DNA of 48,979 nt. It comes from Curtobacterium sp. HSID17257 (lineage in GTDB: Bacteria > Actinomycetota > Actinomycetes > Actinomycetales > Microbacteriaceae). This document shows, one piece after another, positions 13,966-38,272 of the stretch. The translations under genes and the position numbers were made by a program. How positions within the stretch are numbered: the first letter of the stretch is position 1; each line of letters opens with the position of its first letter. The notes under the pieces are model-generated. The model was not told the DNA's origin. It saw nothing but the letters and a program-made list of their open reading frames with translations, and made no database searches. The stretch covers positions 1 to 48,979 of the forward strand of contig NZ_RBLU01000014.1 of the NCBI RefSeq assembly GCF_003989515.1, given 5' to 3'.

Positions 13966-14070
13966 CGCCGGACGGGAGGCGCGACGCACGCCCGCCCCGT
14001 GCCTCCCGTCCGATGCGTTCCCGCCTGGTCCCGCACCGCGCCCGTTCCTGCCCATCGCGCCCGCGATGAA
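13966..14070. repeat. Composite intergenic element, copy A
   Basis: About 105 bases that recur at 14333-14437 with few differences. It opens with the GGACGGGAGGC...GCCTCCCGTCC hairpin (13970-13980 and 14001-14011, perfect 11-bp arms, 20-base loop) and continues into a shared segment containing GCGCCCGTTCCTGCCCAT. Just past it, CGGAACC (14074-14080) and GGTTCCG (14094-14100) form a second small inverted repeat. Confidence 0.8.
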
Positions 14071-14102
14071 AAGCGGAACCGGGCGTGCCAGGCGGTTCCG
14101 CG

Positions 14103-14170
14103 CTACCAGGTACGCCCGATGCGACCAGGTACACCCGCTTCGATCAGGTTCGCCCGCTTCGACCAGGGCC
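14103..14170. repeat. 19-bp tandem units, set 1
   Basis: Units of 19 bp start at 14103, 14122, 14141 and 14160 with core CGACCAGGTNCRCCCGCTT, the last one truncated. The same core is found again at 14269-14325 and at 38357-38451. Confidence 0.75.
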
Positions 14171-14187
14171 GATGCAACCCGGGTTCG

Positions 14188-14266
14188 CGCCGTGCGGCCC
14201 GCTCCGCCCGTTCCTTCCCATCACGCGCGCGATGGAAAGCGGAACCGGGCGTACCAGGTGGTTCCG
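14188..14266. repeat. Composite intergenic element, partial copy C
   Basis: Repeats the second part of copy A: a CCCGTTCCTTCCCATC segment followed by the CGGAACC (14240-14246) / GGTTCCG (14260-14266) inverted repeat and then 19-bp units. The GGACGGGAGGC hairpin is absent from this copy. Confidence 0.65.
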
Positions 14267-14268
14267 CC

Positions 14269-14325
14269 CGACCAGGCACGCCCGAACTGACCCGGCACGC
14301 CCGCTTCGACCCGGTACGCCCGCGT
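14269..14325. repeat. 19-bp tandem units, set 2
   Basis: Three contiguous 19-bp units (14269-14287, 14288-14306, 14307-14325) with core CGACCCGGYACGCCCGCTT. They follow the inverted repeat of copy C just as set 1 follows that of copy A. Confidence 0.75.
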
Positions 14326-14332
14326 CCACGAG

Positions 14333-14437
14333 CGCCGGACGGGAGGCGCGGCGCATACCCGCCCCGTGCCTCCTGTCCGATGCGTTCCCGGCAGGCCCCG
14401 CACCGCGCCCGTTCCTGCCCATCACGCCCGGCATGGA
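14333..14437. repeat. Composite intergenic element, copy B
   Basis: Second long copy of the element at 13966-14070. Its hairpin arms are GGACGGGAGGC (14337-14347) and GCCTCCTGTCC (14368-14378), one mismatch. The similarity to copy A stops near 14437. Confidence 0.8.
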
Positions 14438-14479
14438 ATGCCGATCCGCGCGAAGGACGAACGAAGGAACGCCCTCCCT

Positions 14480-14546
14480 CGCGCGGATCCGCCTCCTCCG
14501 CGCGGACCCGCGTTGTACGCGCGGATCCACCTCCTCCGCGCGGATC
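14480..14546. repeat. 29-bp direct repeat pair
   Basis: 14480-14508 and 14518-14546 agree except at two positions; both start CGCGCGGATCC and end CTCCTCCGCGCGGAYC. The copies are separated by nine bases. Confidence 0.7.
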
Positions 14547-14593
14547 GCGCCCGCTGCGCGCGGAGACGGACGACCGCAGCCCCGGGAACGACG

Positions 14594-14623
14594 ACGGGGC
14601 CGGTCCCGAAGAACCGGCCCCGT
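14594..14623 (-). terminator. Terminator-like hairpin after the DUF3040 gene
   Basis: Perfect 11-bp arms ACGGGGCCGGT (14594-14604) and ACCGGCCCCGT (14613-14623) with an 8-base loop, 28 bases past the stop codon of the minus-strand gene. No T-tract follows, as is usual for terminators in high-G+C actinobacteria. Confidence 0.7.
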
Positions 14624-14651
14624 GGAGGCGTGTGGAGGGAGTGCCGAGCGG

Positions 14652-15053
14652 CTACTGCTGCCCGGGATCGTTGCGCTTGTCCCAGCGCTCGTTCATGCGG
14701 TCCATGAACGAGCCGCCCGAGGACGACGAGCGCGGGGCCCGGCCGGACGACGCCTTGCCGGCCCCGGGCGCCTTCGCCCCGGACTTCGGCATGCGCATGC
14801 CCGGACGCAGTGCGTAGAGGACACCGGCGAGCATCACGACGAAGCCCGGCAGGCCGAGCCACGGCTGCTTCACGACGAGGGCGACGATGACGATCGCGAT
14901 GCCCACGAGGGCGCCCAGCACGCCGATCGTGATCGACGTGTAACTGGCGCGACCCTGGCGGCGCGTGACCCGCGCCACGAAGTCGGAGTCGTTCTGGTAG
15001 AGGCTCCGCTCCATCTCTTCGAGGAGTCGCTGCTCTTGCTCCGAGAGTGGCAT
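14652..15053 (-). CDS. DUF3040 family membrane protein
   Basis: A 133-residue protein beginning MPLSEQEQRLLEEMERSLY, the conserved opening of DUF3040 proteins of actinobacteria. Two adjacent hydrophobic helices (about 45-65 and 69-87) are followed by a Lys/Gly/Ser-rich tail ending in SFMDRMNERWDKR. Function is unknown; homologues are small inner-membrane proteins often found near dcw genes. The ATG at 15053 has AGAGGG upstream. A TAGGAT -10 (15149-15144) implies a leader of about 84 bases. It is divergent from the polyprenyl synthase gene. Confidence 0.9.
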   Translation of the reverse strand: MPLSEQEQRLLEEMERSLYQNDSDFVARVTRRQGRASYTSITIGVLGALVGIAIVIVALVVKQPWLGLPGFVVMLAGVLYALRPGMRMPKSGAKAPGAGKASSGRAPRSSSSGGSFMDRMNERWDKRNDPGQQ

Positions 15054-15143
15054 CTCGTTTCCCTCTTGTTCCTGGGGATGCTGTCTGGGTGACCGCTGGT
15101 GTGCCGCGTTGCCGCCGGGTTGTGGCATCGCGGAAGTGGACCG

Positions 15144-15149
15144 ATCCTA
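15144..15149 (-). promoter_or_regulatory. -10 element for the DUF3040 gene
   Basis: TAGGAT on the minus strand in the 126-bp divergent region; a start near 15137 would leave an untranslated leader of about 84 bases before the ATG at 15053. Confidence 0.5.
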
Positions 15150-15166
15150 CGTCTCGACCGCTCCAC

Positions 15167-15172
15167 TAGGGT
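15167..15172 (+). promoter_or_regulatory. Leaderless-type -10 for the polyprenyl synthase
   Basis: TAGGGT ends seven bases before the GTG start at 15180, the spacing expected when transcription begins at the start codon. An AGGAG also lies between them, but only two bases from the GTG, too close to work as a ribosome site. Confidence 0.55.
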
Positions 15173-15179
15173 AGGAGTC

Positions 15180-16298
15180 GTGGCTGAGAGTACGCGATTA
15201 GTGGACCTCGTTTCGGCACGGGTCGGCCGGGCACTCGACGAGCAGCGTGACCGGCTCCTCGCGATCAGCCCCGACCTCGCGCCGTTCGACCAGTACGCCC
15301 GGGACCTGCTCTCCGGCGGCAAGCGCTTCCGCGCGCTGTTCTGCTACTGGGGGTGGCAGTCCGTCGCCGGCCGGTCCGGGTCGTTCGACCCCCTCGCCGA
15401 GGGGTCCCGTCAGACCACCGCAGAGGCGATCGTCACGGTGGCCGCCGCGCTCGAGATCTTCCACGCAGCAGCCCTGGTGCACGACGACATCATGGACCGC
15501 TCGGACACCCGTCGCGGACGTCCCGCCGCGCACCGACGCTTCGAGTCCCTGCACGACGAGTCCGGCTGGGTCGGCGACCGCGGGCTGTACGGCACGAACT
15601 CCGCACTGCTGCTCGGCGACGTGCTGCTCTCGCTGAGCGATGCGGTCTTCGACGAGGGACTCGCCCTCCTCGACCCGGCGCGTGCTCGGATCGTCCGCCA
15701 GGAGTTCCACACGATGCGGCTCGACGTGACCGCGGGTCAGTACCTCGACGTGCACGAGGAGACTGCCTGGCCGTCCATCGACGAGTCCGAGCACCTCGTC
15801 CGCGCTCAGCGCGTCATCGTCTTCAAGTCGGCGAAGTACTCGATCGAGGCCCCGCTCGTCATCGGTGCCCTGGTCGCCGGCGCGTCCGAGGCGCAGCTCG
15901 AGGGCCTGCGGTCCTTCGGCCTGCCCCTCGGCGTCGCCTATCAGCTGCGCGACGACGTGCTCGGCGTCTTCGGCGACCCGGAGGTCACCGGCAAGCCCGC
16001 CGGCGACGACCTCCGCGAGGGCAAGCGCACCGTCCTCATCGCCTCGGCGCGCAAGTCGCTGGCGCCGGGCCCGAGGCAGCTGCTCGACGAACTGCTCGGC
16101 GACCCGGACCTCGACGAGGAGCAGGTGCAGATGCTCCGTGCGACCCTCACCGAGTCCGGCGCGGTCGCCGCGGTGGAGCGTTCGATCGACCGCCACGTGC
16201 ACCGCGCCAAGGCCGCGCTCGAGGCCACCCCGCTCAGCCCCTCGGCGCGCAACCAGCTGCTGTCGCTGGCCGACACGGTCAGCCGCCGCGTCGCCTAG
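15180..16298 (+). CDS. Polyprenyl diphosphate synthase (IdsA/GrcC type)
   Basis: Trans-isoprenyl diphosphate synthase condensing isopentenyl diphosphate with allylic diphosphates, giving geranylgeranyl or longer chains for menaquinone, carotenoid or lipid carriers. The 372-residue product has GGKRFRAL near residue 45, the first aspartate-rich motif HDDIMD with downstream TRRGRPAAH, and the second, QLRDDVLGVFGD. The GTG at 15180 fits the TAGGGT -10 seven bases upstream. It precedes Rv2175c-, PknL- and AroG-like genes, so it corresponds in position to idsA2 (Rv2173). Chain length cannot be read reliably from the sequence. Confidence 0.92.
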   Translation: MAESTRLVDLVSARVGRALDEQRDRLLAISPDLAPFDQYARDLLSGGKRFRALFCYWGWQSVAGRSGSFDPLAEGSRQTTAEAIVTVAAALEIFHAAALVHDDIMDRSDTRRGRPAAHRRFESLHDESGWVGDRGLYGTNSALLLGDVLLSLSDAVFDEGLALLDPARARIVRQEFHTMRLDVTAGQYLDVHEETAWPSIDESEHLVRAQRVIVFKSAKYSIEAPLVIGALVAGASEAQLEGLRSFGLPLGVAYQLRDDVLGVFGDPEVTGKPAGDDLREGKRTVLIASARKSLAPGPRQLLDELLGDPDLDEEQVQMLRATLTESGAVAAVERSIDRHVHRAKAALEATPLSPSARNQLLSLADTVSRRVA

Positions 16299-16310
16299 AC
16301 GCAGGTCGGA

Positions 16311-16356
16311 ACGGACGGGAGGCACGCGGCGAGCCCGCCACGTGCCTCCCGTCCGT
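16311..16356. terminator. GGACGGGAGGC-family hairpin after the polyprenyl synthase
   Basis: Perfect 16-bp arms ACGGACGGGAGGCACG (16311-16326) and CGTGCCTCCCGTCCGT (16341-16356), 14-base loop. It begins 12 bases after the synthase stop codon and lies between two convergent genes, so it probably ends transcription from both sides. Confidence 0.8.
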
Positions 16357-16415
16357 CGTCGTGGACGTCGATCCGGCGACCAGCGTCGCGCGGACCGCCC
16401 GACGGTCCGTCGCTG

Positions 16416-16781
16416 CTAGAGCAGGGACTGCGCGACGCGGCGCACCTCGGCCTTGCGGCCGGCGCGCAGCGCGGCGATCGGCGAGGTGCGGAGCGCCGGC
16501 TCCTCGGAGAGCATCCAGCGGACGGCCTCGTCGTCGGAGAACCCGTTGTCGCCGAGCACGATCAGCGTGCCGCGGAGCTCCGGCAGCGGCTCGGTGTCGT
16601 CGAGGAACTCGCTCGGCACCCGGAGCACGCCGTCGACCCGGGCGGGCAGCAGGGTCTTCTGCTCGAACAGGCGGTGGATACGCCCCGGGCTCACGCCGAG
16701 GAGGTCCACGAGGTCGGGCACCGTCAGCCAGCGCTCGGAGAGGGTCGTGTCGTCGGTGGATCCATCACTCACGAGCCCCAT
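16416..16781 (-). CDS. Rv2175c-like DNA-binding protein (HTH)
   Basis: A 121-residue protein with an N-terminal winged-helix-like segment, TVPDLVDLLGVSPGRIHRLFEQKTL (about 20-44), followed by a conserved ELRGTLIVLGDNGFSDDEAVRWML region. This matches the architecture of Rv2175c, a mycobacterial DNA-binding protein phosphorylated by PknL. A PknL-like kinase lies 1.6 kb away in the opposite direction, keeping the association. The ATG at 16781 has no clear ribosome site; a GTG three codons later is an alternative. An acidic Thr-rich N-terminus (SDGSTDDTTLS) offers possible phosphosites. Confidence 0.85.
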   Translation of the reverse strand: MGLVSDGSTDDTTLSERWLTVPDLVDLLGVSPGRIHRLFEQKTLLPARVDGVLRVPSEFLDDTEPLPELRGTLIVLGDNGFSDDEAVRWMLSEEPALRTSPIAALRAGRKAEVRRVAQSLL

Positions 16782-16944
16782 GTTGCCAGAGCGCGGGCCC
16801 GATCCACCGCCGTCCCGCTGATCACACGAGTCACACGCGCAACACGCGACTCTCTGGTTGACTTGGGAATCACGCCATGTCAGCGTGGAGCCACCTGTGA
16901 GTGCTCGCTGGCGCGCACGGCTCACCCAGGACAGGAGACAACCC

Positions 16945-18240
16945 GTGGACAACGCTGCAGACGACGCCGCCCGGCGTGCCCGATCCGCCCGGTTCGCCAC
17001 CATGCCGATCGTCCTCGCCGGCACGATCGCCGTCACCGCCGGACTCACCGGCCCGGTGGCGCACGCCGAACCTCGGCACGACGACGACGCCACGAAGAAG
17101 CGGCACGTCGACGAGGACCGGAACGTGGGCCACCGCCCGGTCTTCGGCACCGCCGTCGCCCGCCCGTCGAGCACCACGGTCACCACGGTGGCCAGCGTGA
17201 CGAAGGCCCCGACGACGTACACGGTGCGCCAGGGCGACACGGTCTCCGGGATCGCCGCACGCTTCGGGCTCTCCGCGCAGGAGGTCCTGGTCCGCAACGG
17301 CCTCGGCTGGAACACGATCATCCACCCCGGCCAGACGCTCCACCTGGCGTCGGCGCCCGCCGCCCCAGCTGCAGTTGCCGCTGCCGCCCCGGCTCCGTCC
17401 GGCACGAGCGGCAACTACCACGTGAAGTCCGGCGACACCGTGTCGGCCATCGCCGCCCGCAACGGCGTGTCGACCTCGGCGATCCTCGCGGCGAACAACC
17501 TGTCGCAGCGCTCGCTCATCTACCCCGGCCAGACGCTGACGATCCCGCGCGCCGGGACCACGCCGGCCGCACCCGCACCCGCTGCGAGCACCGCGCCGGC
17601 CACGGCTGCGCCGGCTCCCGCTCCCGCTGCTGCGACGAGCGTGAAGATCGCGGCCGGCGACACCATCGGCGCCATCGCCGCGAAGCACGGGGTGTCGGTG
17701 AAGGCCCTCCTCGCCGCGAACGGCCTCAGCTACACGAGCACGATCTACGCCGGGAAGGTCCTGGTGCTGCCCGCGGCGACCTCCAAGCCCACGACGACCG
17801 CGACCGGCGGCGCCGTGACGACCGCGGTCGGCAGCGTCAACGGCGTCGAGCTGACCGGTGAGCAGCGGCGCAACGCAGCAACCATCGTCAGCGTCGGCCG
17901 GACCCTCGGCGTCCCCGACCGCGGCATCGTCATCGCCCTCGCGGCGGCGCTCCAGGAGTCGAGCCTGCGCAACCTGTCGCACGGTGACCGCGACTCCGTC
18001 GGCCTGTTCCAGCAGCGCCCGAGCCAGGGTTGGGGCACGACGGCGGCGCTGCAGGACCCGGCCACCGCCGCGGAGCTGTTCTTCGTCGGCAACCCCGGCA
18101 AGACCCGGGGCCTGCTCGGCGTCCGAGGATGGTCGTCGATGGCCCTGACCGACGCCGCGCAGGCGGTCCAGGTCTCCGCGTACCCGAACGAGTACGCGAA
18201 GTGGGAGCAGACGGCGCGCGCGCTGCTGACCTCGCTCTGA
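16945..18240 (+). CDS. Secreted three-LysM cell-wall protein with lysozyme-like C-terminal module
   Basis: A 431-residue exported protein. Residues 1-41 form a signal peptide ending in AHA. Three LysM domains lie at about 92-135, 157-200 and 233-275, joined by Ala/Pro linkers. The C-terminal module (about 300-431) contains ALQESSLRNLSHGDRDSVGLFQQRPSQ; E338 sits where the catalytic glutamate of lysozyme-like folds would be. It should bind and perhaps cleave peptidoglycan. The GTG at 16945 is chosen because AGGAGA lies six bases upstream and it yields a clean signal peptide. It is read toward the PASTA kinase gene, 109 bases away. Confidence 0.88.
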   Translation: MDNAADDAARRARSARFATMPIVLAGTIAVTAGLTGPVAHAEPRHDDDATKKRHVDEDRNVGHRPVFGTAVARPSSTTVTTVASVTKAPTTYTVRQGDTVSGIAARFGLSAQEVLVRNGLGWNTIIHPGQTLHLASAPAAPAAVAAAAPAPSGTSGNYHVKSGDTVSAIAARNGVSTSAILAANNLSQRSLIYPGQTLTIPRAGTTPAAPAPAASTAPATAAPAPAPAAATSVKIAAGDTIGAIAAKHGVSVKALLAANGLSYTSTIYAGKVLVLPAATSKPTTTATGGAVTTAVGSVNGVELTGEQRRNAATIVSVGRTLGVPDRGIVIALAAALQESSLRNLSHGDRDSVGLFQQRPSQGWGTTAALQDPATAAELFFVGNPGKTRGLLGVRGWSSMALTDAAQAVQVSAYPNEYAKWEQTARALLTSL

Positions 18241-18336
18241 CGAGTCAGCCCCGTCGACCGGTGGGTCGACTCATCCTCGAGATCGAGATTGGGTCACGGT
18301 CGGTGCGTCAGGTCGGACCGCACCGGCAGCCCTTCG

Positions 18337-18342
18337 TAGAAT
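18337..18342 (+). promoter_or_regulatory. Leaderless-type -10 for the PASTA kinase
   Basis: TAGAAT ends seven bases before the ATG at 18350, and no ribosome site is present. This spacing favours the ATG at 18350 over the in-frame ATG at 18341, which overlaps the -10 itself. Confidence 0.65.
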
Positions 18343-18349
18343 GCCGCCG

Positions 18350-20389
18350 ATGACCACGAACGCCGCCACGGACCCGATGATCGGTCGGATGATCGACCAG
18401 CGGTACCGCGTGCGCTCGCGCATCGCCCGCGGCGGCATGGCGACCGTGTACCTCGCCACCGACGTCCGGCTCGAGCGCCGCGTCGCGATCAAGATCATGC
18501 ACGGGCACCTGGCCGACGACCAGGCCTTCCGGGAGCGCTTCATCCAGGAAGCACGCTCGGCGGCACGGCTCTCCCACCCGAACCTCGTCGGGGTGTACGA
18601 CCAGGGCGCCGAGGACGACACGGCGTACATCGTGATGGAGTACATCCCGGGCATCACCCTGCGCGACCTGCTGCAGGAGCACCGGGCACTCACGCCGGAG
18701 CAGGCGACCGACATCCTGCGCGCCGTGCTCGCCGGCCTGGCGTCGGCGCACAAGGCCGGCATCGTGCACCGTGACCTCAAGCCCGAGAACGTGCTGCTCG
18801 CCGACGACGGTCGCATCAAGCTCGGCGACTTCGGCCTGGCACGCGCGACGACGGCGAACACCGCGACCGGCGCGGCCCTGCTCGGGACGATCGCCTACCT
18901 GTCCCCCGAGCTCGTCACGCGCGGCGCCGCCGACTCGCGCAGCGACATCTACGCGCTCGGCATCATGCTGTACGAGATGCTCACCGGCGAGCAGCCCTAC
19001 AAGGGCGACCAGCCGATGCAGATCGCCTACCAGCACGCCAACGACACGGTCCCGGTGCCGAGTGCCGCGGAACCGGGCGTCCCGCCGGAGCTCGACGACC
19101 TGGTCGCCTGGGCCACCGCCCGCGATCCCGAGGACCGTCCCCGCGACGCCCGCGAGATGCTCGACCACATCTCGGGCAACCAGCAGCGCGCCACCGGCCA
19201 GTACCGCACGGCCGTCCTCCGTCCGGAGAACGCCACCGCGATCCTGCCCGCCGGCAGCGCCGTACCGTCCTCGGCCGACGCCGTGCGGGGCGACAGCGGC
19301 GCGCAGGACGACGCCACGCGGGTCATCGCCAGCTCGACCGGCGGCGCCCCCGCGGCACCGGGTCGTCGCGGCGCACCCGGCCCCCGCCGCACCGGGTCCC
19401 AGCCCGGTGCGCTCTCCCCCGCGGGACAACGTCTGGCCGACAAGTCCGCCAAGCGCCGGAAGCGCGGGTGGGTCCTGCTCGCGGTCGTCGTGGTGCTCGC
19501 GATCATCGCCGGGGTGGTCGGGTGGGCGCTCGGTCCGGGTCCCTGGGGCAACGTGCGCATCCCCGAGGTCACCGGCAAGTCGGTGGCACAGGCCCGGCAG
19601 CTCCTCCAGGCGCAGGGCCTCGAGCCCGCTGCCGGCACCGACAGCCGCTACGACGCGGTGGTGGCCAAGGGCCAGGTCTCGACGACGAAGCCCGCGGCCG
19701 AGCGCGAGGTCCGCAAGGGCACGCCGGTGCAGATCGTCGTGTCGAACGGCCCGCGGATGATCGCCCTGCCCGCGATCGTCGGGCAGCCCCTGTCGACCGT
19801 GACGGCCGCGCTCGACGACGACTTCCAGCTGCAGGACGACCAGTACGAGTTCTCCGCCGACGCACCGAAGGACACCGTGATCGCGGCGAAGGGCCTCGGC
19901 ACCGACGGGCAGACCGTCGACCTGGCGTCCGGCGGCGAGTACGCCGAGCGCGGCCCGGTCACCCTGACGGTCTCGCTCGGAGCCGTCCCCGACGTCACGG
20001 GGAAGACCCTCGACGCGGCCACCGCCGCGCTCGACGACGTCGGTCTGGTCGTCGGCGCCCAGCAGGAGCGCTACAGCGACGACGTCCCGAAGGGCCAGGT
20101 CATCTCGTCCAGCGTCGAGGACTCCCCCGCTGTCCGTGGCTCCGCCGTGGACCTCGTGCTCTCGAAGGGGCCGACGCCGATCACGCTGCCCGACGTCGCG
20201 GGCAAGACCATCGACGAGGCGACCTCGACGCTCGAGAACCTCGGCCTCGACGTGAAGGTGCCCGACTGCACGAACGTGCTCTGCCGCTTCTACGACTGGA
20301 AGTCGGCGCTCCCGGTCACCGCGACCGACCCGGTCCAGGGCTCCACCGTGTACCGCGGCGACACGATCACGCTCTCCTACGAGCAGTAG
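18350..20389 (+). CDS. pknL: Membrane Ser/Thr protein kinase with four PASTA domains (PknL-like)
   Basis: Hanks-type kinase sensing muropeptide or lipid II through extracellular PASTA repeats. The 679-residue product has the Gly-rich loop IARGGMATVY (25-34), K48, catalytic HRDLKPEN (D142), DFG (160-162) and an activation loop with several threonines. A Pro/Ala-rich juxtamembrane linker follows, then a membrane helix (373-395) and four PASTA units from about 402 to the end; the last carries a two-cysteine insert (DCTNVLCRFYD). Neighbouring Rv2175c-like and aroG genes match the pknL locus of M. tuberculosis, although PknB-type names would also be used. Start choice follows the leaderless -10. 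Confidence 0.93.
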   Translation: MTTNAATDPMIGRMIDQRYRVRSRIARGGMATVYLATDVRLERRVAIKIMHGHLADDQAFRERFIQEARSAARLSHPNLVGVYDQGAEDDTAYIVMEYIPGITLRDLLQEHRALTPEQATDILRAVLAGLASAHKAGIVHRDLKPENVLLADDGRIKLGDFGLARATTANTATGAALLGTIAYLSPELVTRGAADSRSDIYALGIMLYEMLTGEQPYKGDQPMQIAYQHANDTVPVPSAAEPGVPPELDDLVAWATARDPEDRPRDAREMLDHISGNQQRATGQYRTAVLRPENATAILPAGSAVPSSADAVRGDSGAQDDATRVIASSTGGAPAAPGRRGAPGPRRTGSQPGALSPAGQRLADKSAKRRKRGWVLLAVVVVLAIIAGVVGWALGPGPWGNVRIPEVTGKSVAQARQLLQAQGLEPAAGTDSRYDAVVAKGQVSTTKPAAEREVRKGTPVQIVVSNGPRMIALPAIVGQPLSTVTAALDDDFQLQDDQYEFSADAPKDTVIAAKGLGTDGQTVDLASGGEYAERGPVTLTVSLGAVPDVTGKTLDAATAALDDVGLVVGAQQERYSDDVPKGQVISSSVEDSPAVRGSAVDLVLSKGPTPITLPDVAGKTIDEATSTLENLGLDVKVPDCTNVLCRFYDWKSALPVTATDPVQGSTVYRGDTITLSYEQ

Positions 20390-20453
20390 GCACCCGGCAC
20401 GAGACCCGTCGGGGCTCGCTCCGGTCGCGCGGCGCACCGTCGGCGATCGTCAC

Positions 20454-20504
20454 GGTCGTACGACCTGCCGTCGCGACGGAACCTGAGCGGCAGGTCGTGC
20501 GACC
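20454..20504. repeat. GTCGTGCGACC-family palindrome, copy 1
   Basis: Arms 20454-20470 (GGTCGTACGACCTGCCG) and 20488-20504 (CGGCAGGTCGTGCGACC) pair at 16 of 17 positions around a 17-base loop starting TCG and ending CTGAG. It lies in the 203-bp gap between convergent pknL and aroG. A second copy with the same loop length is at 31349-31409. Confidence 0.75.
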
Positions 20505-20532
20505 GCAGCCGAGCAGGACGGACGCCGGTACG

Positions 20533-20580
20533 GACGGACGGGAGGCGCGGTGCCAGCCGGCACCGCGCCTCCCGTCCGTC
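20533..20580. terminator. GGACGGGAGGC-family hairpin after aroG, 22-bp stem
   Basis: Perfect 22-bp inverted repeat (20533-20554 and 20559-20580) with a 4-base AGCC loop, the longest stem of the family. It starts 12 bases beyond the aroG stop (minus strand) and can also serve pknL. Confidence 0.85.
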
Positions 20581-20592
20581 GTGTGGTCGCGC

Positions 20593-21978: not shown

Positions 21979-22016
21979 GGCGGTACCTCGGTGTTCTGGG
22001 TCGGGCGGGAGCGGAC

Positions 22017-25908: not shown

Positions 25909-25955
25909 ACGGGAGGCCCGGTGCCGGTCCGACGGACCGACACCGGGCCTCCCGT
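25909..25955. terminator. GGACGGGAGGC-family hairpin after the acyl-CoA synthetase
   Basis: Outer arms ACGGGAGGCCCGGTG (25909-25923) and CACCGGGCCTCCCGT (25941-25955) pair perfectly over 15 bp, and an inner GGTCC (25926-25930) / GGACC (25934-25938) extends the stem around a GAC loop. Ten bases after the stop codon. Confidence 0.8.
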
Positions 25956-30259: not shown

Positions 30260-30266
30260 CTGGCGG

Positions 30267-30272: not shown

Positions 30273-30280
30273 GGCTCACC

Positions 30281-31093: not shown

Positions 31094-31113
31094 GCCCTGT
31101 CGAGCTGCGTCGG

Positions 31114-31189
31114 CTGTCGAGCGGGCGACGTCCGTCGCGGTCGGCGGTACCGCGCCTGTCGAGCGGGCCACATCCGTCACGCTCGGCGG
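31114..31189. repeat. 34-bp imperfect tandem duplication
   Basis: Copies 31114-31147 and 31156-31189 differ at four of 34 positions; both begin CTGTCGAGCGGGC and end TCGGCGG. The period is 42 bp. A shorter related piece starts at 31098. Confidence 0.7.
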
Positions 31190-31348
31190 CCGTGAGCGAC
31201 GATCCCTGCCCGCGCGACGACGACCCCGCGGCGTGTCCTGCCCACTCGGGTCGGGGCCTGCTCGACCCGTCGCACGTCCGAGCCGTCGCACGTCTGGCCT
31301 TTCGTACGTCTGAGCCGTCGCTGACCGAGATCGGCCGGGGCTCCGTCC

Positions 31349-31409
31349 GTCGTGGTCGCACGACATGCCGTCGGCACAGGAGCTGAGCGGCAGGTCGTGC
31401 GACCACGAC
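31349..31409. repeat. GTCGTGCGACC-family palindrome, copy 2
   Basis: Arms 31349-31370 and 31388-31409 form a 22-bp stem with one mismatch; the core is GTCGTGGTCGCACGAC paired with GTCGTGCGACCACGAC. The 17-base loop begins TCG and ends CTGAG, as in copy 1 at 20454-20504. Confidence 0.8.
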
Positions 31410-31625
31410 CGACAGGTGCGGCAAGTCGTGCGCCCGGAACGACAGGCCGTGCTGACTCGGAGGTCGATCGCCGCACCTCGGCTGGCGGCTCCCGGCTCCG
31501 AACGCCGGACGCCAGACGCGCCGGAAGCCAGACGCCGGACGTGCCGTCGATCATGCCGCACCGAGCGGGCAGAACACGCCGTGCGTCGGACACCGAGCGG
31601 GTTCGAAACGTCGTCGGGGCGGCGT

Positions 31626-31649
31626 GAGCGTGACAGATCGTGCACGCTC
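31626..31649. repeat. 24-bp inverted repeat, copy 1
   Basis: GAGCGTG (31626-31632) and CACGCTC (31643-31649) flank ACAGATCGTG. A near-identical copy lies 61 bp away. Confidence 0.75.
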
Positions 31650-31686
31650 AGAAGAGAGCCCTGCGACAGGGACGCCGGGGCGTCGC

Positions 31687-31710
31687 GAGCGTGACAGATC
31701 TTGCACGCTC
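31687..31710. repeat. 24-bp inverted repeat, copy 2
   Basis: GAGCGTG (31687-31693) and CACGCTC (31704-31710) flank ACAGATCTTG; one base differs from copy 1 at 31626-31649. It lies about 80 bp past the stop of the minus-strand MerR gene. Confidence 0.75.
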
Positions 31711-31790
31711 GCGGGAGCGCTCGACACCGACGGGCAGCCGGAAGACGGGCCCCGTGACGACCAGGGGCCAGTGCCGGCGGGGCCGAGCGG

Positions 31791-32351
31791 CTAGGACGCG
31801 CGGGTGGCCCGGCGGGCGGCGAGCTCGTCGGCGGGATCGGCAGCCGGGGTCGCGTCGAGCTCGACCAGGGAACTCTCGACCTCGCGCAGGACCTTGCCGA
31901 CGGCGATGCCGAACACGCCCTGGCCGCGGGACACCAGGTCGATGACCTCGTCGTCCGAGGTGCACAGGTAGACCGACGCACCATCGGACATCAGCGTCGT
32001 CTGGGCCAGGTCGGACACGCCGGACTCGCGGAGCTGGTTCACCGCGGTGCGGATCTGCTGCAGCGAGATCCCGGTGTCGAGGAGTCGCTTGACGAGCTTG
32101 AGCACGAGGATGTCGCGGAAGCCGTAGAGCCGCTGCGATCCGGAACCGGCGGCGCCGCGGATGGTCGGCTGCACGAGCTCGGTGCGGGCCCAGTAGTCGA
32201 GCTGGCGGTACGAGATGCCGGCTGCTCGGGCGGCGACGGTGCCGCGGTAGCCGTTCTGCTCGTCGTGCTCGGGGAGACCGTCGGTGAAGAGCAGGCCGAG
32301 GTCGTACCGAGTCATCTCGGACTCGGTACCGGGGGTGTCAGTCCCACTCAT
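31791..32351 (-). CDS. MerR-family regulator (Rv1830-like)
   Basis: A 186-residue protein with a MerR winged helix: YRGTVAARAAGISYRQLDYWARTELVQPTIR, then GSGSQRLYGFRDILVLKLVKRLLDTGISLQQIRTAVNQLR, followed by a C-terminal segment with LMSDGASVYLCTSDDEVIDL. This is the pattern of the second MerR gene in the actinobacterial garA region. The ATG at 32351 is chosen: GGAAGG is seven bases upstream of it but only one base from the earlier ATG at 32357. A TCAAC-N5-GTTGA inverted repeat lies 41 bases upstream. Confidence 0.9.
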   Translation of the reverse strand: MSGTDTPGTESEMTRYDLGLLFTDGLPEHDEQNGYRGTVAARAAGISYRQLDYWARTELVQPTIRGAAGSGSQRLYGFRDILVLKLVKRLLDTGISLQQIRTAVNQLRESGVSDLAQTTLMSDGASVYLCTSDDEVIDLVSRGQGVFGIAVGKVLREVESSLVELDATPAADPADELAARRATRAS

Positions 32352-32391
32352 GTGCATGCCTTCCACGACGTTCGAGCTCTCACCAGAAGGT

Positions 32392-32406
32392 TCAACGACG
32401 GGTTGA
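32392..32406 (-). promoter_or_regulatory. Inverted repeat upstream of the second MerR gene
   Basis: TCAAC (32392-32396) and GTTGA (32402-32406) around five bases. MerR-type regulators bind dyads of about this size, so it is a candidate operator for one of the two MerR proteins here. Confidence 0.4.
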
Positions 32407-32550
32407 GAGTTGTTCCGAGGTCCACGGTAGCGACTCGGGCAGCGTCTGCCCGGCACATCCGCACCGGCGCGTCCGGCGTGTCGAGGATACGCCCCGACCA
32501 CCGACGGTCGACAGGGGTCACCCGCGCGCTCGGAGTCGCCCGGCGGACGC

Positions 32551-33255
32551 TCATGCGTCGAGTCGGCCGATCGCCGCGCGGACCAGGTTGGACCGGACGA
32601 CCTCGAGCTGTCCGGCGATCTCCCGCGCGAGCTCCGTCGCCTTCGCCCGCGAGGTGGCATCGCCCCGGCGGGAGACCGGCATGAGCGCGGACTCGATCAG
32701 CCCGACCTCGCGCTCGACGACCCCGCGCATCGTGCGCAGGTGTCGCGGCTCGATCCCGGTGCGCTGCAGCTCGACGAGGGCCTTCAGCACGGCCACGGCA
32801 TCGTCGCCGTAGGTGTCCGCAGCGGGAAGCAACGACGCGGAGACCGCGTCGTTCAGGAGCATCGGTGAGGCGCCCGCGGCACGGACGGTCTCGTCGCGGG
32901 TGTACCGGCGCTCACGACCCAGGATGGACGGCTTCGGGGCGTCGCCACCACCGGGCAGGACGGGTTCGCGACCGGCATCGAGGTCGGCGAGGTAGTCCTT
33001 GATGACCTTGAGCGGCAGGTAGTGGTCGCGCTGCAACCCGAGCACGATGCGGAGCCGGTCCACGTCGGCCGCCGAGAACTTCCGGTAGCCGCTCGCGGTG
33101 CGGATCGGCGTGACGAGCTCCCGTTCCTCGAGGAAGCGGAGCTTCGAGCTCGACAGGTCGGGGAACTCGGGCTTCAACCGGGCGATGACCTGCCCGATGG
33201 TGAGCAGGTCCGGTACCGCAGCACTGGCCCGGGCTGCGGCGGACCGCGCAGCCAC
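32551..33255 (-). CDS. ftsR: MerR-family regulator FtsR (Rv1828-like)
   Basis: A 234-residue MerR-type protein. The N-terminal helix-turn-helix reads LLTIGQVIARLKPEFPDLSSSKLRFLEERELVTPIRTASGYRKF in segments, followed by ADVDRLRIVLGLQRDHYLPLKVIKDYL. This is the signature of Rv1828 and of corynebacterial FtsR, an activator of ftsZ expression. Its C-terminal half is helical and probably dimerises. The GTG at 33255 shares its base with the FHA gene's TAG stop, so the two are coupled. The assignment to ftsZ control is from family knowledge; ftsZ is outside the window. Confidence 0.88.
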   Translation of the reverse strand: MAARSAAARASAAVPDLLTIGQVIARLKPEFPDLSSSKLRFLEERELVTPIRTASGYRKFSAADVDRLRIVLGLQRDHYLPLKVIKDYLADLDAGREPVLPGGGDAPKPSILGRERRYTRDETVRAAGASPMLLNDAVSASLLPAADTYGDDAVAVLKALVELQRTGIEPRHLRTMRGVVEREVGLIESALMPVSRRGDATSRAKATELAREIAGQLEVVRSNLVRAAIGRLDA

Positions 33256-33859: not shown

Positions 33860-33901
33860 GGACGGGAGGCACGGGGCGGGCCTGCACCGTGCCTCCAGTC
33901 C
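33860..33901. terminator. GGACGGGAGGC-family hairpin after the GH18 gene
   Basis: Arms GGACGGGAGGCACGG (33860-33874) and CCGTGCCTCCAGTCC (33887-33901), one mismatch in 15, lying 26 bases past the GH18 stop codon on the minus strand. Confidence 0.75.
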
Positions 33902-33926: not shown

Positions 33927-35525
33927 TCAGGGCGCGGGCGTCGCCGTCGCGGTGGCTGACGGAGCCGGCTCCCCGGAGGCGAGCCCGTCCAGGATCCGGC
34001 GCACCTCGGCGTCCTTCAGCCGCACCCAGGGCGACCCGTCCGGGTCGCTCGTCGACGCCTCGGGGCTGTCGCCCGTGTTCCACCACTTCGACTGGTAGGG
34101 GATCCCCTGGAACAGGACGCGCGCTCCCGTGTCGTACTGCGTGGTCCCCGACCACGCGGCGTAGGCCCCTGCGGGCAGGGTGAGCGGTTCCACGGGCTTC
34201 TCCCCCGGCAGGACCGGTCCGATGATCTGCCACGGCGTCTCGTACGCGCTGAGCACCGGGTCGTCGGGCAGGTCGCCCGACGTCCACCACTTCGCCTCGT
34301 AGACGTTGTGGTGCCACACCACCTTCGTGCCCTCGAGGTACGAGGCGTCCTGGTCCCAGACCGGGTAGGGACTGGTCTTCGGGTCGTCGGTGGGCTGCTC
34401 GGTCGCGGACGGCTCGGCCTCGGTCACGTCGGAAGCCGCCGCGACGATCCCGCCGCCGAAGCCCTTGCCGAGCACGTCGGCGAAGAGCACCCCGTGCTGG
34501 TCGACCCCGGAACACGAGTTCGACACGGTCGACAGGTTGACGTAGTTCGAGCCGCACGTGGTGTCGCGGTTGAGCGACCACATCGACATCCGGCCCAACC
34601 CGCGGTCACGCGCCCAGGCGTTGAGCTTCCGGGCGTCCGTGAGCGAGAACACCTCGTCACGGACGTCGTTCTGCCCGATCATCGGGGTCGCACCGACCTT
34701 GTGCCAGAGCGTGCTGTCGCCGAGGGGCGTGCCCGCGCGCTGGTACAGGACACCGAGCTGCCGCTGGACCTCCTGCAGCGCCTGCACCGACGCCGAGTAC
34801 ATGCTCTGGCTCGACCCCTTCGCCTCGCCGTAGTCCATCGTCATGGCGTTGACACCGGCGAGGTCCACACCGGCGGCGAGGAACTGCGCCACGGCGGTCG
34901 TGCCGTCGGACGTCAGGCCCGAGGGCGCTGCCGGCAGGGTGAGCCAGACCGCGAGCGGGTGGCCGGCTGCCCGGCGCTCGTCCTGCAGCGCCGCGACCGC
35001 CTTCGCGCGACGCTCCCCCGCGGCGCGGTTCGTGAGGTCGTCGCCCTCGACGTCGTAGTCGACGGTCGACAGGTCGTAGCGGTCCACGACCTTCCGGTAG
35101 GCACCGAGGAGGTCGGACGCCTTCGTGCAGGTGGTGGCGAGCTCGTCGTTGGCCAGGCCGCCGAACGACACGCCGACCTCGCCGTGCTGCTGCTGCAGGC
35201 GGGCGACGCGGCGGTCGAGGTCGAGCTGGTCCGCCGCACCCTGCAGTGAGTAGTAGGACCCCCACGTCGGCGAGCAGGCGTCGTCGTGGTCGGCGACGAC
35301 GAAGGACAGCATGACGTTGCGTCCCTTCGCCGACTTGACGTCCTCGAACGCGAAGGCCGGCGTCGCGGTGACGTCCGTGTAGGCCGCGAACCACGCCGGC
35401 TCCCGCTCGGTCGCCTGGGCCGCGTGCCAGCGGTCGAAGCCGGCGTACCCGGCGACCGAGACGGCGGCGGCGACCACGACCGCGATGGTGACCCGGACCG
35501 GGGAGAGTCGTCTCGTCGTCGGCAT
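33927..35525 (-). CDS. Exported GH18-family glycoside hydrolase with two carbohydrate-binding modules
   Basis: A 532-residue protein with an N-terminal signal anchor (about 11-28). Its GH18-type domain (about 42-365) shows SFGG (120-123) and VDYDVEG with E160 as the predicted acid catalyst. It ends with two CBM5/12-like modules (about 387-437 and 451-502), each with an AKWW/SKWW-TSGD core, and an Ala/Thr/Pro tail. GH18 enzymes act on chitin-like or other GlcNAc polymers. The ATG at 35525 overlaps the synthase stop as TGATG, so the two are co-translated; it may trim or modify the product of that synthase. Endo- versus exo-activity is unknown. Confidence 0.88.
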   Translation of the reverse strand: MPTTRRLSPVRVTIAVVVAAAVSVAGYAGFDRWHAAQATEREPAWFAAYTDVTATPAFAFEDVKSAKGRNVMLSFVVADHDDACSPTWGSYYSLQGAADQLDLDRRVARLQQQHGEVGVSFGGLANDELATTCTKASDLLGAYRKVVDRYDLSTVDYDVEGDDLTNRAAGERRAKAVAALQDERRAAGHPLAVWLTLPAAPSGLTSDGTTAVAQFLAAGVDLAGVNAMTMDYGEAKGSSQSMYSASVQALQEVQRQLGVLYQRAGTPLGDSTLWHKVGATPMIGQNDVRDEVFSLTDARKLNAWARDRGLGRMSMWSLNRDTTCGSNYVNLSTVSNSCSGVDQHGVLFADVLGKGFGGGIVAAASDVTEAEPSATEQPTDDPKTSPYPVWDQDASYLEGTKVVWHHNVYEAKWWTSGDLPDDPVLSAYETPWQIIGPVLPGEKPVEPLTLPAGAYAAWSGTTQYDTGARVLFQGIPYQSKWWNTGDSPEASTSDPDGSPWVRLKDAEVRRILDGLASGEPAPSATATATPAP

Positions 35526-37951
35526 CAGGCTGCGCTCCGTTCCTGGCGGGGGCCGGCCGAGCCGGTCTGGGTGGTGGACGAGATCGGGCGGACGTCGGCC
35601 GCACCGACGACGTCGGCGTCGTGGCGGACGGGCAGGTTGCCGCCGCCGTGGCCGAAGTACAGGACCGCGTGCCAGTCCTCGGTGACCGGCTCCGGGACGG
35701 GACGGACACCGCCGCGACGACGTCCGTGCCGACGGTCGGCACGAGCAGCACGGCGGACGGCACGACGGGCCGCGCGCGCCGACGGGTCGTAGTACATCCA
35801 GCGGGTGGCCCACAGCCAGAGGTCGACCACGGAGTTCCACACGCCGATGTAGGCGACGATCGCGTAGGTGGCGAGGAGGGCGTTGAAGGCGGCGAAGACC
35901 GCGTTTCCCCAGTTCTGCGCGCCGTAGTCGCGGACGAAGGTGAAGACCGAGAACGCGACGATCGCGTAGGGCGCGAGGACGTAGAGCGCCGGCGAGGCGG
36001 TGCGGTCCCGCACCTTCGGCGTCCGGGCGAACGGGATCTTCTTCGCCGTCAGGGCCTGCTGGATGCTCTTGAGCACGCCCGCGACGTTCACCGGCGTGAG
36101 GATGAGGTTGAAGCCGTAGATGCGGAAGACGTCCGTGCGCTTGTACCCGCAGTACTTCAGGTCGCTCGACAGCAGCCAGAAGTAGGGCAGCGCGGCGAGG
36201 AGCACCATCGGGCTGAGCAGGCGCGAGTCGTACGGGTACGCGAGCAGGAAGACGAGGCCGAACGACGCCCAGGTGATCGACGCCATGTAGTTGACGCGGA
36301 GCGCCATCTCGACGAGACCGACCCGTTCGCCACGGGCCCGGCGCTCGCGGACCTGCCGGACGTACTTCGGCAGGATGAGGAGCCCCCCGTTCGCCCAGCG
36401 GCGGCGCTGGACGACGAGCGACCCGAAGTCCGGGGGCGTCGCGCTGTACGAGAGCCGCTCCGGGTAGTTCACGAGCGTCCAGCCGTGCATGCCCAGGTCG
36501 ACGCTCGACTCGGTGTCCTCGATCACGGTGCGGTCCTGCACGTAGCGCTTCACCTCGAAGCCGCCGACGGTCTCGACCTCCTCGATGTCGCGGAGCGCCT
36601 GGGTGCGGATGACGGCGTTCGCCCCGACCCAGAAGGTGGCGTCGTAGCGGGACATCCCCTGGTGGAGGATGTGCTGGATGTCGGTGGTGGCCCCCGCGAG
36701 CCGTTCGATGCGCGTGGCGGCACCGCGGAAGGACGAGTACGGGGTCTGCGTCACCGCGACCCGGGCGTTCTCCGGCTGCTCGAGGAAGTAGACCAGGCGC
36801 AGGCAGTAGTCGCGGAGCAGGACGGAGTCGGCGTCGAGCGTCAGGAGGTAGTCCGAGGCCGGCACCACGAGGTCGGCCGCTGCCGGGTCGGCGACGGTGC
36901 GCAGGACGGTGCCGGACGCGGTCTCGTCGAACGCGTACGCCCCGCCCATCAGGCCGATGTAGGCATTGAGGTTCATCGCCTTGTTGGCCTCGTCGGACAG
37001 GTTCACGTACCGCTTGCGCTCGAAGGCCGTGAGCTCCGCCGTGAAGGTCCACGCGAGGCGGCGCTGCAGCTCGAGCGCCCGGGCGGAGGTCACCTCGCTG
37101 AAGTCCTGCCCGAGTGCGACGGCATCGGCGATCGCGGCCTCCAGCGCCTCGGCGGTGAGGCGGAACTCGTCGGCGAGCCCGACGAGCACCTGGTCGTGGA
37201 AGAAGCGGTCGACGTGGTCGGCGACCTCGTGCTCGCGGGCGTTCCGACGGAGCCACGCGTCGGCCCAGCGGTGGTGCTCGACGAGGGTCCGGAGGGCGTG
37301 CGTGCTGGCGAACGGTGCCGCGTCCGCCTCGACCTCGGCGGAGAACAGCGCCTCCTGGAACCGACGCGAGGGGGCATCGAGCTGCGCCTGGATGCGGCCC
37401 GCGACCGCTCGGGTGCGCTCGAGCTTGTCGAGCGTCGCCGGGTCGGACGGGAAGGGGGCGTCGTCGACCAGCAGGACGATCCGCAGGGACGGGTACTCCT
37501 GCAGCGCCGCCGACCAGAGGGTGGTCGCGACGACGTCGGGCTCCTCGGCGTAGCTCGGCACGAGGACGGTCATGGGGGCGTCGTGGCCGGTCGCGAAGTG
37601 CCGGTCGAGCTCGGCGCGCGGGACGCGGACGTGGGTCGCGAAGCGCTCCATCGCGCCCTGGCGGGCCACCAGGTGCATGAGCGCGGAGAACGTCAGGAAG
37701 GTGACGACCACGAGGTACGAGACGGCCTCGGTGGTGAAGCGGAAGCTCTCGGTGCCGTAGTCGAGGAACTGGCGGATCACGGTGTAGACGACGTACGCCA
37801 GCCAGAAGGCGATGGTCAGGATGATCGCCACGCGTCCGGACACGAGCTTGCGGTCGGAGGGGCGTGCGTGCAGGGTGTCGAGCGGACGGGTCCGGCGCTC
37901 GGCCCCCCACTGACGACGGCGCATCGGTGCGCCGGCAGACGGTTCGGGCAT
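35525..37951 (-). CDS. Family-2 processive glycosyltransferase (polysaccharide synthase)
   Basis: An 808-residue membrane synthase like cellulose, chitin or hyaluronan synthases. Two membrane helices (about 40-63 and 74-95) precede the GT2 domain: PSYAEEPD, LVDD (161-164), LDADS (372-376), IEDTESS (ED 478-479), and QRRRW (514-518). Several helices follow, then an Arg-rich cytoplasmic end. Unusually, about 210 residues separate the first and second aspartate motifs, where most synthases have about 100; the extra part (about 170-345) is charged and helical. The ATG at 37951 has AAGGA five bases upstream. It is coupled to the GH18 gene. No PilZ domain or bcsB partner is seen, and the polymer is unknown. 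Confidence 0.9.
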   Translation of the reverse strand: MPEPSAGAPMRRRQWGAERRTRPLDTLHARPSDRKLVSGRVAIILTIAFWLAYVVYTVIRQFLDYGTESFRFTTEAVSYLVVVTFLTFSALMHLVARQGAMERFATHVRVPRAELDRHFATGHDAPMTVLVPSYAEEPDVVATTLWSAALQEYPSLRIVLLVDDAPFPSDPATLDKLERTRAVAGRIQAQLDAPSRRFQEALFSAEVEADAAPFASTHALRTLVEHHRWADAWLRRNAREHEVADHVDRFFHDQVLVGLADEFRLTAEALEAAIADAVALGQDFSEVTSARALELQRRLAWTFTAELTAFERKRYVNLSDEANKAMNLNAYIGLMGGAYAFDETASGTVLRTVADPAAADLVVPASDYLLTLDADSVLLRDYCLRLVYFLEQPENARVAVTQTPYSSFRGAATRIERLAGATTDIQHILHQGMSRYDATFWVGANAVIRTQALRDIEEVETVGGFEVKRYVQDRTVIEDTESSVDLGMHGWTLVNYPERLSYSATPPDFGSLVVQRRRWANGGLLILPKYVRQVRERRARGERVGLVEMALRVNYMASITWASFGLVFLLAYPYDSRLLSPMVLLAALPYFWLLSSDLKYCGYKRTDVFRIYGFNLILTPVNVAGVLKSIQQALTAKKIPFARTPKVRDRTASPALYVLAPYAIVAFSVFTFVRDYGAQNWGNAVFAAFNALLATYAIVAYIGVWNSVVDLWLWATRWMYYDPSARAARRAVRRAARADRRHGRRRGGVRPVPEPVTEDWHAVLYFGHGGGNLPVRHDADVVGAADVRPISSTTQTGSAGPRQERSAA

Positions 37952-38230
37952 GGCAGTCCTTCGTTCCTTCCGGACCAGCGCTCCGTCGGGTCGGGCGCTG
38001 TCGGGGGTCCGGTCGGTCGGGACGACGGTACGAGGGATCGCGCAGGACGCCGACACCCGTACGGGGGGTCCGGGCGGTTGTGTGCGGGATCACGCAGCCG
38101 CGTGCGGCATCGCGTGGCCGCGGCGCGGATCCCCGCACGGGCCGTCGGGTCGAGTCGGTCGGCGCCGCCGCCTGCTGCCGTCGGCCGACGGACGGACGGC
38201 AGGTGCCCCCTCGCGACGCCACCACGTGAC

Positions 38231-38272
38231 GGACGGGAGGCGCGGCACCGGCCCGCACCGCGCCTCCCGTCC
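38231..38272. terminator. GGACGGGAGGC-family hairpin between permease operon and synthase
   Basis: Perfect 15-bp arms GGACGGGAGGCGCGG (38231-38245) and CCGCGCCTCCCGTCC (38258-38272), 12-base loop. It lies 190 bases past the permease stop, further than the other copies, with the 19-bp units between. Confidence 0.7.

Follow-up and report, generated by a model that had tools for sequence, protein, structure and literature searches.

The window analysed here, a stretch of 48,979 nt, belongs to a Curtobacterium genome (Actinomycetota), of which 3.35 Mb were searched. The first-pass annotation had reported seven similar hairpins between its genes, and we confirmed 7/7, all of which fold as stems. 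They are listed below as copies of a palindrome termed F1, together with two single half-sites inside genes. The distances to stop codons rest on gene calls made in this analysis and the gene names are those of Pfam, except for the gene at 6533–8029, which we take to be murF from its place in the dcw cluster (gene order). The only known RNA family detected in the window was mraW RNA.

7162..7172, plus strand: single half-site GGACGGGAGGC, inside gene 6533–8029 (minus strand), murF, in a linker that is rich in indels in relatives
13970..14011, no strand: F1 palindrome, upstream of mraZ and 640 nt beyond the stop codon of DUF3040 gene 14652–15053 (minus strand); half of a local duplicate pair
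14337..14378, no strand: F1 palindrome, 273 nt beyond the stop codon of the same DUF3040 gene 14652–15053 (minus strand); local duplicate of copy 13970
16311..16356, no strand: F1 palindrome, site A, 12 nt past the stop, between the convergent polyprenyl synthetase (15201–16298, plus strand) and Rv2175c-like (16416–16781, minus strand) genes
20533..20580, no strand: F1 palindrome, site B, 22-bp perfect stem, 12 nt past the stop, between the convergent Pkinase/PASTA (18341–20389, plus strand) and DAHP synthase (20593–21978, minus strand) genes
25909..25955, no strand: F1 palindrome of the 47-nt subtype, site C, 9 nt past the AMP-binding gene (24052–25899, plus strand), which is convergent with a deformylase gene (26305–26808, minus strand)
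33860..33901, no strand: F1 palindrome, 25 nt beyond the stop codon of CBM_5_12 gene 33927–35525 (minus strand); kept in the relative G371
38231..38272, no strand: F1 palindrome, 190 nt beyond the stop codon of FecCD gene 38463–39443 (minus strand); kept in the relative G371
47131..47154, plus strand: single half-site CTCGGCCTGGAGGCGCGGTGCCAG, inside gene 46813–47454 (plus strand)

As had been noted before, four copies lie close past a stop codon (12, 12, 9, and 25 nt for 16311, 20533, 25909, and 33860) and three further away (640, 273, and 190 nt for 13970, 14337, and 38231). The copies at 13970 and 14337 belong to a stretch of 121 bp that is locally duplicated with 87.6% identity and, being duplicates, are not independent. 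The earlier figure of up to 22 bp for the stem was also correct, the perfect 22-bp stem being that of copy 20533–20580.

A search of the 3.35 Mb with the arm GGACGGGAGGC gave 246 + 235 = 481 matches, against 1 + 2 = 3 for a reversed control pattern, and the arm pair ACGGGAGGC-N10-40-GCCTCCCGT gave 196 matches against 0. The genome contains many copies rather than few. A looser arm search allowing ≤4 mismatches found 175 hits in the genome's own contigs and 265 with the reversed control; it was noise and was therefore replaced by stringent matches. Flanking bases lengthen the arm to GACGGACGGGAGGC, so that the F1 unit reads GACGGACGGGAGGC-N20-GCCTCCCGTCCGTC, and 161 of 202 stringent matches have an exact span of 38 nt. 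The palindromes measure 42–48 bp, occur in length subtypes of 43, 47, and 54, and carry a symmetric flank profile with GACGG at both ends; there are approximately 200–300 near-identical hairpins per genome, with median MFE values of −48.0 and −43.8 kcal/mol. The arms are nearly identical, as had been described, but the ‘variable loops’ of that description consist mostly of a base-paired interior whose length is fixed and which covaries as a helix. Sequence is indeed conserved besides structure: GGAGGC and its neighbours stay while the interiors change.

Perfect 9+9 arm pairs were present in 42/42 Curtobacterium genomes tested with that pattern (5–211 each) and in 5/292 other Microbacteriaceae genomes (one each). 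If these were ordinary GC-rich terminators whose likeness is coincidental, the excess of arm matches over the control would not be expected, nor would the pattern be as rare as chance predicts in other Microbacteriaceae genera of high GC content. Elsewhere in these genomes, genes do end in long hairpins of unrelated sequence, but we regard such coincidence as extremely improbable, and the control patterns and the family survey rule out chance or base composition as the source of F1. The seven window features are members of one genus-wide palindrome family. The matches listed from the open PMC literature included no such element in Curtobacterium.

The position of F1 relative to genes was examined in two evenly spaced 400-kb samples. 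The palindrome occupied 24/91 convergent gaps, 20/238 tandem gaps, and 0/108 divergent gaps, and the median distance from the core to the nearest upstream stop codon was 22–25.5 nt across three sets. Copies between divergent genes amounted to 1/15 in G315, 5/144 in the named loci, and 0/22 in the own contigs. Convergent gaps without F1 numbered 31/48, many of them filled by other long hairpins.

The hairpin is kept at orthologous sites although the flanks are unalignable. At site A, a 32-nt core was found in 18/21 orthologous regions (the window included), with 325/360 pair cells paired and double changes at 11/24 positions. At site B, 20 relatives carried F1 in 14 cases, another long hairpin in 5, and none in 1, and at site C a GGAGGC hairpin was present in 17/19 comparable relatives. 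The stop distances, the gap orientation counts, and the orthologous sites support the earlier suggestion that the palindrome family is employed at gene ends.

That suggestion had been coupled to the idea of a spreading palindromic element. In this explanation, F1 would be a mobile, non-autonomous element of REP/MITE type that was put to use at gene ends as it spread, and the singles in coding sequence would be insertion relics. The high copy number, the restriction to the genus, the length subtypes, the REP-like intergenic location past gene ends, the local duplication at 13970/14337, and the occurrence of an arm at each end of the variable murF linker would all fit. A near-identical palindrome also occurs on two Microbacterium plasmids (the plasmid search matched 3 records), so it can travel along with genes; a search against phages gave no match. 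However, copies are retained at orthologous sites across the genus, and Y1/RAYT transposase genes (Y1_Tnp, PF01797) gave 0 matches in the own genome under conditions where 5/14 control genomes matched. The empty sites anticipated in relatives did not appear: among the few sites compared, none was cleanly empty and none showed a target duplication. The mobile-element explanation is quite unlikely, and the original idea of spreading is weakly supported.

The absence of T-tracts after the stems, reported earlier for the window, was confirmed in the tails of 27 hairpins of G371 and 20 of G034, where 0 tails had ≥4 T in 8 nt; the mean T content was 1.28 (G371) and 1.60 (G034) against backgrounds of 1.09 and 1.15. 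A simple T-tract terminator scan of positions 13000–32999 found 2 candidates versus 3.1 in shuffles, none of them at F1 sites. F1 shares with the canonical intrinsic terminator a stable hairpin shortly past the stop codon, except that three of the seven window copies are 190–640 nt off. U-less termination in Actinomycetota is itself debated. We consider F1 to be probably a U-less bidirectional 3′-end hairpin of terminator type, located where transcription units end. Transcription from both directions would yield an identical, highly stable hairpin, in many cases a few to a few tens of nucleotides downstream of the stop codon. This hairpin would end or define the mRNA 3′ end and keep convergent genes from running into one another; RNA polymerase may stop there, or the hairpin may protect a processed end. 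How high-GC Gram-positives end transcription without U-tracts is unsettled, and F1 makes the question testable through one consensus and its mutants. Counting against a plain terminator, such a structure would need neither conserved arm letters nor single half-sites in genes.

Such single half-sites occur in all gene contexts, and also unpaired inside the window genes. In coding sequence, the 12 most over-represented 11-mers include 10 derived from the arm, and singles exceeded the reversed pattern in G034 (45 vs 10), G371 (25 vs 9), and G168 (A form, 100 vs 19); the excess was weak in the own genome (14 vs 8), and over-representation in coding DNA is modest overall. Synonymous-codon shuffles gave 7 arm 11-mers vs 0.3 expected in the own contigs and 12 vs 1.1 in the named loci, where 4 of these 12 belong to palindromes in wrongly called genes; the counts were 1 vs 0.4 for G315 and 0 vs 0.2 for the core region of 20 genomes. 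Since an unrelated control word beat its shuffle too (5 vs 0.65), these were not relied on. Markov models of orders 4–6 do show an excess, while at maximal order there was hardly any in the last base (11 vs 9.8, 5 vs 5.0). With a weight matrix, Curtobacterium yielded 352 half-sites paired in gaps vs 30 coding singles, and the 343 kb of coding sequence from one core region compared in 20 genomes contained 2 strict singles.

The coding half-sites lie on either strand and in each of the three codon frames (in G168, 49 sense and 83 antisense), which spoke against a peptide motif behind them; the window site at 42534, however, is simply protein sequence that relatives conserve. A polar Chi/KOPS-like motif was rejected, as there was no replichore bias: by contig half (origin not located), the strand balance was +21/−18 and +10/−14 in G371 and +22/−23 and +27/−21 in G034. 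Of the coding half-sites with relatives, 8/12 align gap-free, some of them reciprocally, which argues against insertion relics of a mobile element.

The base preceding GGAGGC varies by lineage, giving CG, CT, and A dialects, and the change runs in parallel in palindromes and in both intergenic and coding singles, while 7/7 control contexts showed no difference. A relic of insertion would not shift its spelling in this manner, and spelling in step across genes, gaps, and hairpins calls for a cause acting in trans. We propose that the half-site, with its core GGAGGC, would be a genome-wide DNA motif upheld by something acting in trans, and that the arm letters would be kept beyond structure for this reason. 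The agent might be a binding protein, a recombination drive, or an uptake receptor.

The first of these corresponds to the shared binding factor suggested earlier: F1 would be the site of a sequence-specific DNA- or RNA-binding protein (a nucleoid, termination, or processing factor), with palindromes binding dimers and singles binding weakly. Conserved arms at the 38-nt spacing and singles in all gene contexts are consistent with it, and the lineage spelling that single half-sites have in common with the palindromes lends it support, as would be expected if the specificity of the factor drifts. However, a dimer site does not need an interior that covaries as a helix, the length subtypes break the fixed spacing, and no factor was found. 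We see the binding factor as a real, if minority, possibility.

Alternatively, the half-site may be a DNA-uptake sequence, in which case biased uptake and recombination would enrich it in tolerant places, with inverted pairs gathering at gene ends and doubling as terminators, an explanation that complements the terminator role. As in DUS/USS, the half-site is over-represented in coding and non-coding DNA, forms inverted pairs at gene ends, occurs in both orientations, and has lineage dialects; the lead of arm words among coding 11-mers, the excess of coding singles, the use of both strands and all frames, and the lack of replichore bias point the same way, and comEC with an adjacent SLBB-HHH (comEA-like) gene is present. 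On the other hand, ComEC is widespread (10/14 control genomes), coding singles are far fewer than in known uptake sequences, most half-sites are paired in gaps, the one core region examined was not dense in them, and the murF site lies in an indel-rich linker. We therefore consider an uptake role unlikely. The wider claim, that Curtobacterium and at least one other Microbacteriaceae genus carry an uptake-type self-recognition sequence whose inverted pairs have given Curtobacterium one of its major classes of bidirectional, U-less terminators, would likewise be speculative and of low probability. We know of no such sequence in Actinomycetota, a group in which none was expected, and to our knowledge self-recognition in transformation is so far a feature of Gram-negative families. 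If DNA uptake were the cause, self-recognition would extend past these families and influence how genes move within a common genus of plant-associated bacteria.

Some known systems resemble F1, which we read as a probable terminator-type hairpin. The palindromic elements of Rickettsia place palindrome-related sequence inside reading frames, and the murF linker may be an example, whereas F1 is mostly intergenic and its coding sites mostly align gap-free. REPs, as described in the extracts of PMC3733652, are likewise palindromes of high copy number that follow coding regions and separate convergent or tandem genes, and F1 is extragenic in the same manner; it differs in its symmetric ends, which lack a GTAG/CGTC tag, in the lack of RAYT/Y1 in its own genome, in its genus-wide orthologous retention, and in having a half-site that stands single in genes. 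The same extracts describe CGTC REPs without a dedicated transposase. In Neisseria and Pasteurellaceae, terminators are built from uptake signal sequences, which, in the extracts of PMC1852404 and PMC3630211, share with F1 a short conserved motif, inverted pairs forming hairpins at gene ends, singles including some in genes, dialects, and both orientations. F1 differs in belonging to Actinomycetota, in its long GC-rich motif, in its fixed-length covarying interior, in being mostly paired, and in lacking a T-tract, and its uptake role is putative. The U-poor long terminator hairpins of Streptomyces, as given in the extracts of PMC8269248 and PMC12207403, resemble F1 in being very stable, past stop codons, poor in U, and from a high-GC actinomycete; what sets F1 apart from them is an arm sequence common to hundreds of copies.

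All seven hairpins with conserved arms that the first-pass annotation described in the window are present, starting at positions 13970, 14337, 16311, 20533, 25909, 33860 and 38231, and the genome-wide count that it had proposed as a check found the arm to be abundant. In the assembly of this strain (3.35 Mb in 253 contigs, the window being contig C51), the 11-mer arm occurs 246 + 235 times against 1 + 2 for the reversed pattern, and the arm pair ACGGGAGGC-N10-40-GCCTCCCGT occurs 196 times against none for the reversed pattern. Scanning named genomes for the pattern gave at least 116 stretches; among the matches listed, 113 were labelled Curtobacterium (Microbacteriaceae, Actinomycetota) and the other three were a Cellulosimicrobium MAG contig, Actinomadura and Streptomyces. 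The pair pattern was found in 36/36 Curtobacterium genomes of a first set (28-196 copies each) and, in a draw of 299 genomes of the family, in 7/7 Curtobacterium genomes (the present one and six new ones; 5-211 copies), giving 42 of 42 distinct genomes. Single copies were found in 5 of the 292 genomes of other genera in that draw and in 1 of 23 genomes from other families of the order. With the shorter core GGAGGC-N16-30-GCCTCC, three Curtobacterium genomes gave 293, 277 and 267 copies against 14, 15 and 9 in controls. Among the 150 genomes scanned, two numbered genera gave 196 vs 39 and 159 vs 38 (g56) and 146 vs 64 and 58 vs 55 (g76), and the remaining genera were mostly near control, with a small excess in a few. 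The palindromes, called F1 here, are a real, genus-wide family, conserved in sequence and sited at the ends of transcription units.

Among 202 stringent matches (at most two mismatches in the 9 + 9 arms), 161, of which 121 are distinct, span exactly 38 nt, and the flanks lengthen the arm to GACGGACGGGAGGC. The interior is variable yet paired, Watson-Crick pairs accounting for 77% of the first interior pair (34% expected) and 73% of the fifth (38% expected). No T-tract was found at the F1 stems. Since these matches were picked by their arms, they cannot by themselves establish that the arms are conserved, and orthologous sites give a less biased view. The region around the copies at 16311, 20533 and 25909 was read in 20 relatives. 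At 16311, 18 of 21 sequences, the window counted, contain a 32-nt core (15 distinct). Watson-Crick or G-U pairs fill 325 of 360 pair cells, double changes occur at 11 of 24 positions, the interior switches type, and on both arms the G that precedes GGAGGC is replaced by T. The hairpin is retained in close relatives though the surrounding gap DNA is largely unalignable. At 20533, F1 is present in 14/20 relatives, another long hairpin in five and none in one; at 25909, 17 of 19 comparable relatives have a GGAGGC hairpin. Copies 33860 and 38231 are retained in the Curtobacterium genome G371, and no clean empty site was seen among the orthologous sites compared. Three divergent gaps of the same region, and five short tandem ones, lack a strong hairpin in every comparable relative. 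The following features adjoin F1 copies or lie nearby in the window:

13203-13301, minus strand: mraW RNA (Rfam), located between mraZ and the gene that follows.
13729-14651: the mraZ upstream gap, in which local tandem duplication (121 bp at 87.6%, 157 columns at 81.5%) has doubled the F1 copy, giving the pair at 13970 and 14337.
20390-20592: repeated CGGTCGCACGACGTGCCG units adjoining F1, here and in orthologous gaps; their number differs among relatives.
About 38330-38440: GGAACGACCAGGTGTGCCC-type short tandem repeats past the end of the FecCD gene, with an expanded array in G371 (locus L381).

Position relative to genes, called with a custom codon-usage caller, was analyzed in evenly spaced 400-kb samples each from two Curtobacterium genomes, G371 and G034, with Fisher tests. 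F1 was found in 15/46 and 9/45 convergent gaps, respectively, in 10/112 and 10/126 tandem gaps, and in 0/57 and 0/51 divergent gaps; when strong hairpins were counted regardless of sequence, 57/91 convergent vs 2/108 divergent gaps were occupied in both samples together. Divergent F1 copies numbered 0/22 in contigs of the present genome, 1/15 in genome G315 and 5/144 in named loci, which were chosen for holding hits and had 2/144 copies within genes. In the own contigs and G315, 17 of 48 convergent gaps carry F1, and many F1-free ones are occupied by other long hairpins, some recurring, e.g. GCACAACGAGAAGCACC and GCGAAAGCGACAG. Most likely, the F1 copies serve as U-less bidirectional 3'-end hairpins. 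Recurrent long-hairpin families other than F1, the GCACAACGAGAAGCACC and GCGAAAGCGACAG types among them, lie at convergent gene ends (L141 3308-3357, L152 1713-1762, L147 13053-13233, L224, L225, L232), and the GCGAAAGCGACAG type is also found in g56.

With regard to mobility, we found neither a Y1_Tnp match in the present genome nor an F1 palindrome in phage records. Two Microbacterium plasmids carry palindromes 91.7% and 87.5% identical to the 20533 copy, 13 nt past a gene annotated as SDR oxidoreductase, and a Curtobacterium plasmid carries one 91.5% identical, 11 nt from a gene end. In the Microbacterium plasmids (L382, L383), near-identical F1 stands behind the same three-gene stretch with identical protein accessions, which points to transfer of these genes together with the terminal hairpin. 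Copies on plasmids appear to have travelled with genes.

Unpaired half-sites were also found. After clear palindromes had been masked in 1.15 Mb of Curtobacterium coding sequence, 21,943 11-mers, each seen at least 10 times, were ranked against a frame-aware order-5 Markov model; the arm, with 16 occurrences against 0.9 expected, came second by excess, and arm pieces or variants made up 10 of the top 12. Of 487 places selected by these top words, 367 were intergenic; within genes, 94 had no partner and 26 had one, some of the latter lying in miscalled genes. With stricter masking and trimmed gene ends, a 24-column weight matrix at 14 bits gave 30 coding hits; 60 column permutations averaged 2.1 and reached 10 at most. 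The extended consensus cCGGCCTGGAGGCGCGGnTCGcCtCC is common to 23 coding sites of G034, which use all three frames and both strands. Coding counts versus reversed were 45 vs 10 (G034), 25 vs 9 (G371), 14 vs 8 (own) and, for the form with A before GGAGGC, 100 vs 19 (G168); two control genera gave 3 vs 5 and 0 vs 3, and 6 vs 2 for the A form in one. Gap counts outside strong hairpins, some of them imperfect palindromes, were 27 vs 0, 21 vs 1, 9 vs 0 and 50 vs 1 for G034, G371, own and G168. In g56, AGGAGGCGCGG stands three times in tandem, 20 bp apart (L298 11166-11216).

The base before GGAGGC differs between lineages. Palindromes with CG and CT numbered 196:4 in the own genome and 145:0, 28:63 and 53:94 in others, CT outnumbering CG in 7 of the 42 genomes with counts of both. 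Before GGAGGCNCGK, G:T in G371 vs G034 was 47:6 vs 9:35 in hairpins, 21:4 vs 9:23 in gap singles and 18:8 vs 9:39 in coding singles, and no difference was seen at seven control contexts taken from these coding sequences (p 0.18 to 1). G168 has A there at 71/132 coding, 34/41 gap and 10/10 hairpin sites. The half-site belongs to a wider motif with lineage dialects. No motif polarity was found by contig half.

The boldest reading, conceivable if rather unlikely, is that the half-site is a DNA-uptake sequence. Inverted pairs of uptake sequences act as terminators in Neisseria and Pasteurellaceae (PMC1852404), uptake-sequence dialects track phylogeny (PMC3630211), DNA uptake in Micrococcus luteus uses ComEA, ComEC and Flp pili, and this gene combination is frequent in actinobacteria (PMC6370729, PMC4322843); the own genome has a comEC gene with an SLBB-HHH gene adjoining. 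Against this reading, half-sites are mostly paired by the weight matrix (gaps hold 352 paired and 43 single ones, genes 30 single ones), and the core region of 20 genomes has few strict coding singles (2 in 343 kb, 5.8 per Mb, vs 35-75 per Mb in other sets). A relative was available for only 12 of 89 strict coding sites (eight gapless alignments, including two reciprocal pairs, and four gapped), and in the window one coding site merely reflects conserved protein sequence. The murF site is part of an indel-rich linker that has arm-like words at either end in most of 30 sequences, a picture that would also fit insertion; this linker (window near 7162; L321-L350) is in frame, of variable length and bounded by such words across the genus. 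No motif polarity was found by contig half.

Curtobacterium goes unmentioned in the main text of the REP survey PMC12306157. REPs resemble F1 in preferring convergent and tandem gaps and differ from it in their GTAG or CGTC tags (PMC3733652). Streptomyces terminators are long, stable and U-poor (PMC8269248, PMC12207403).
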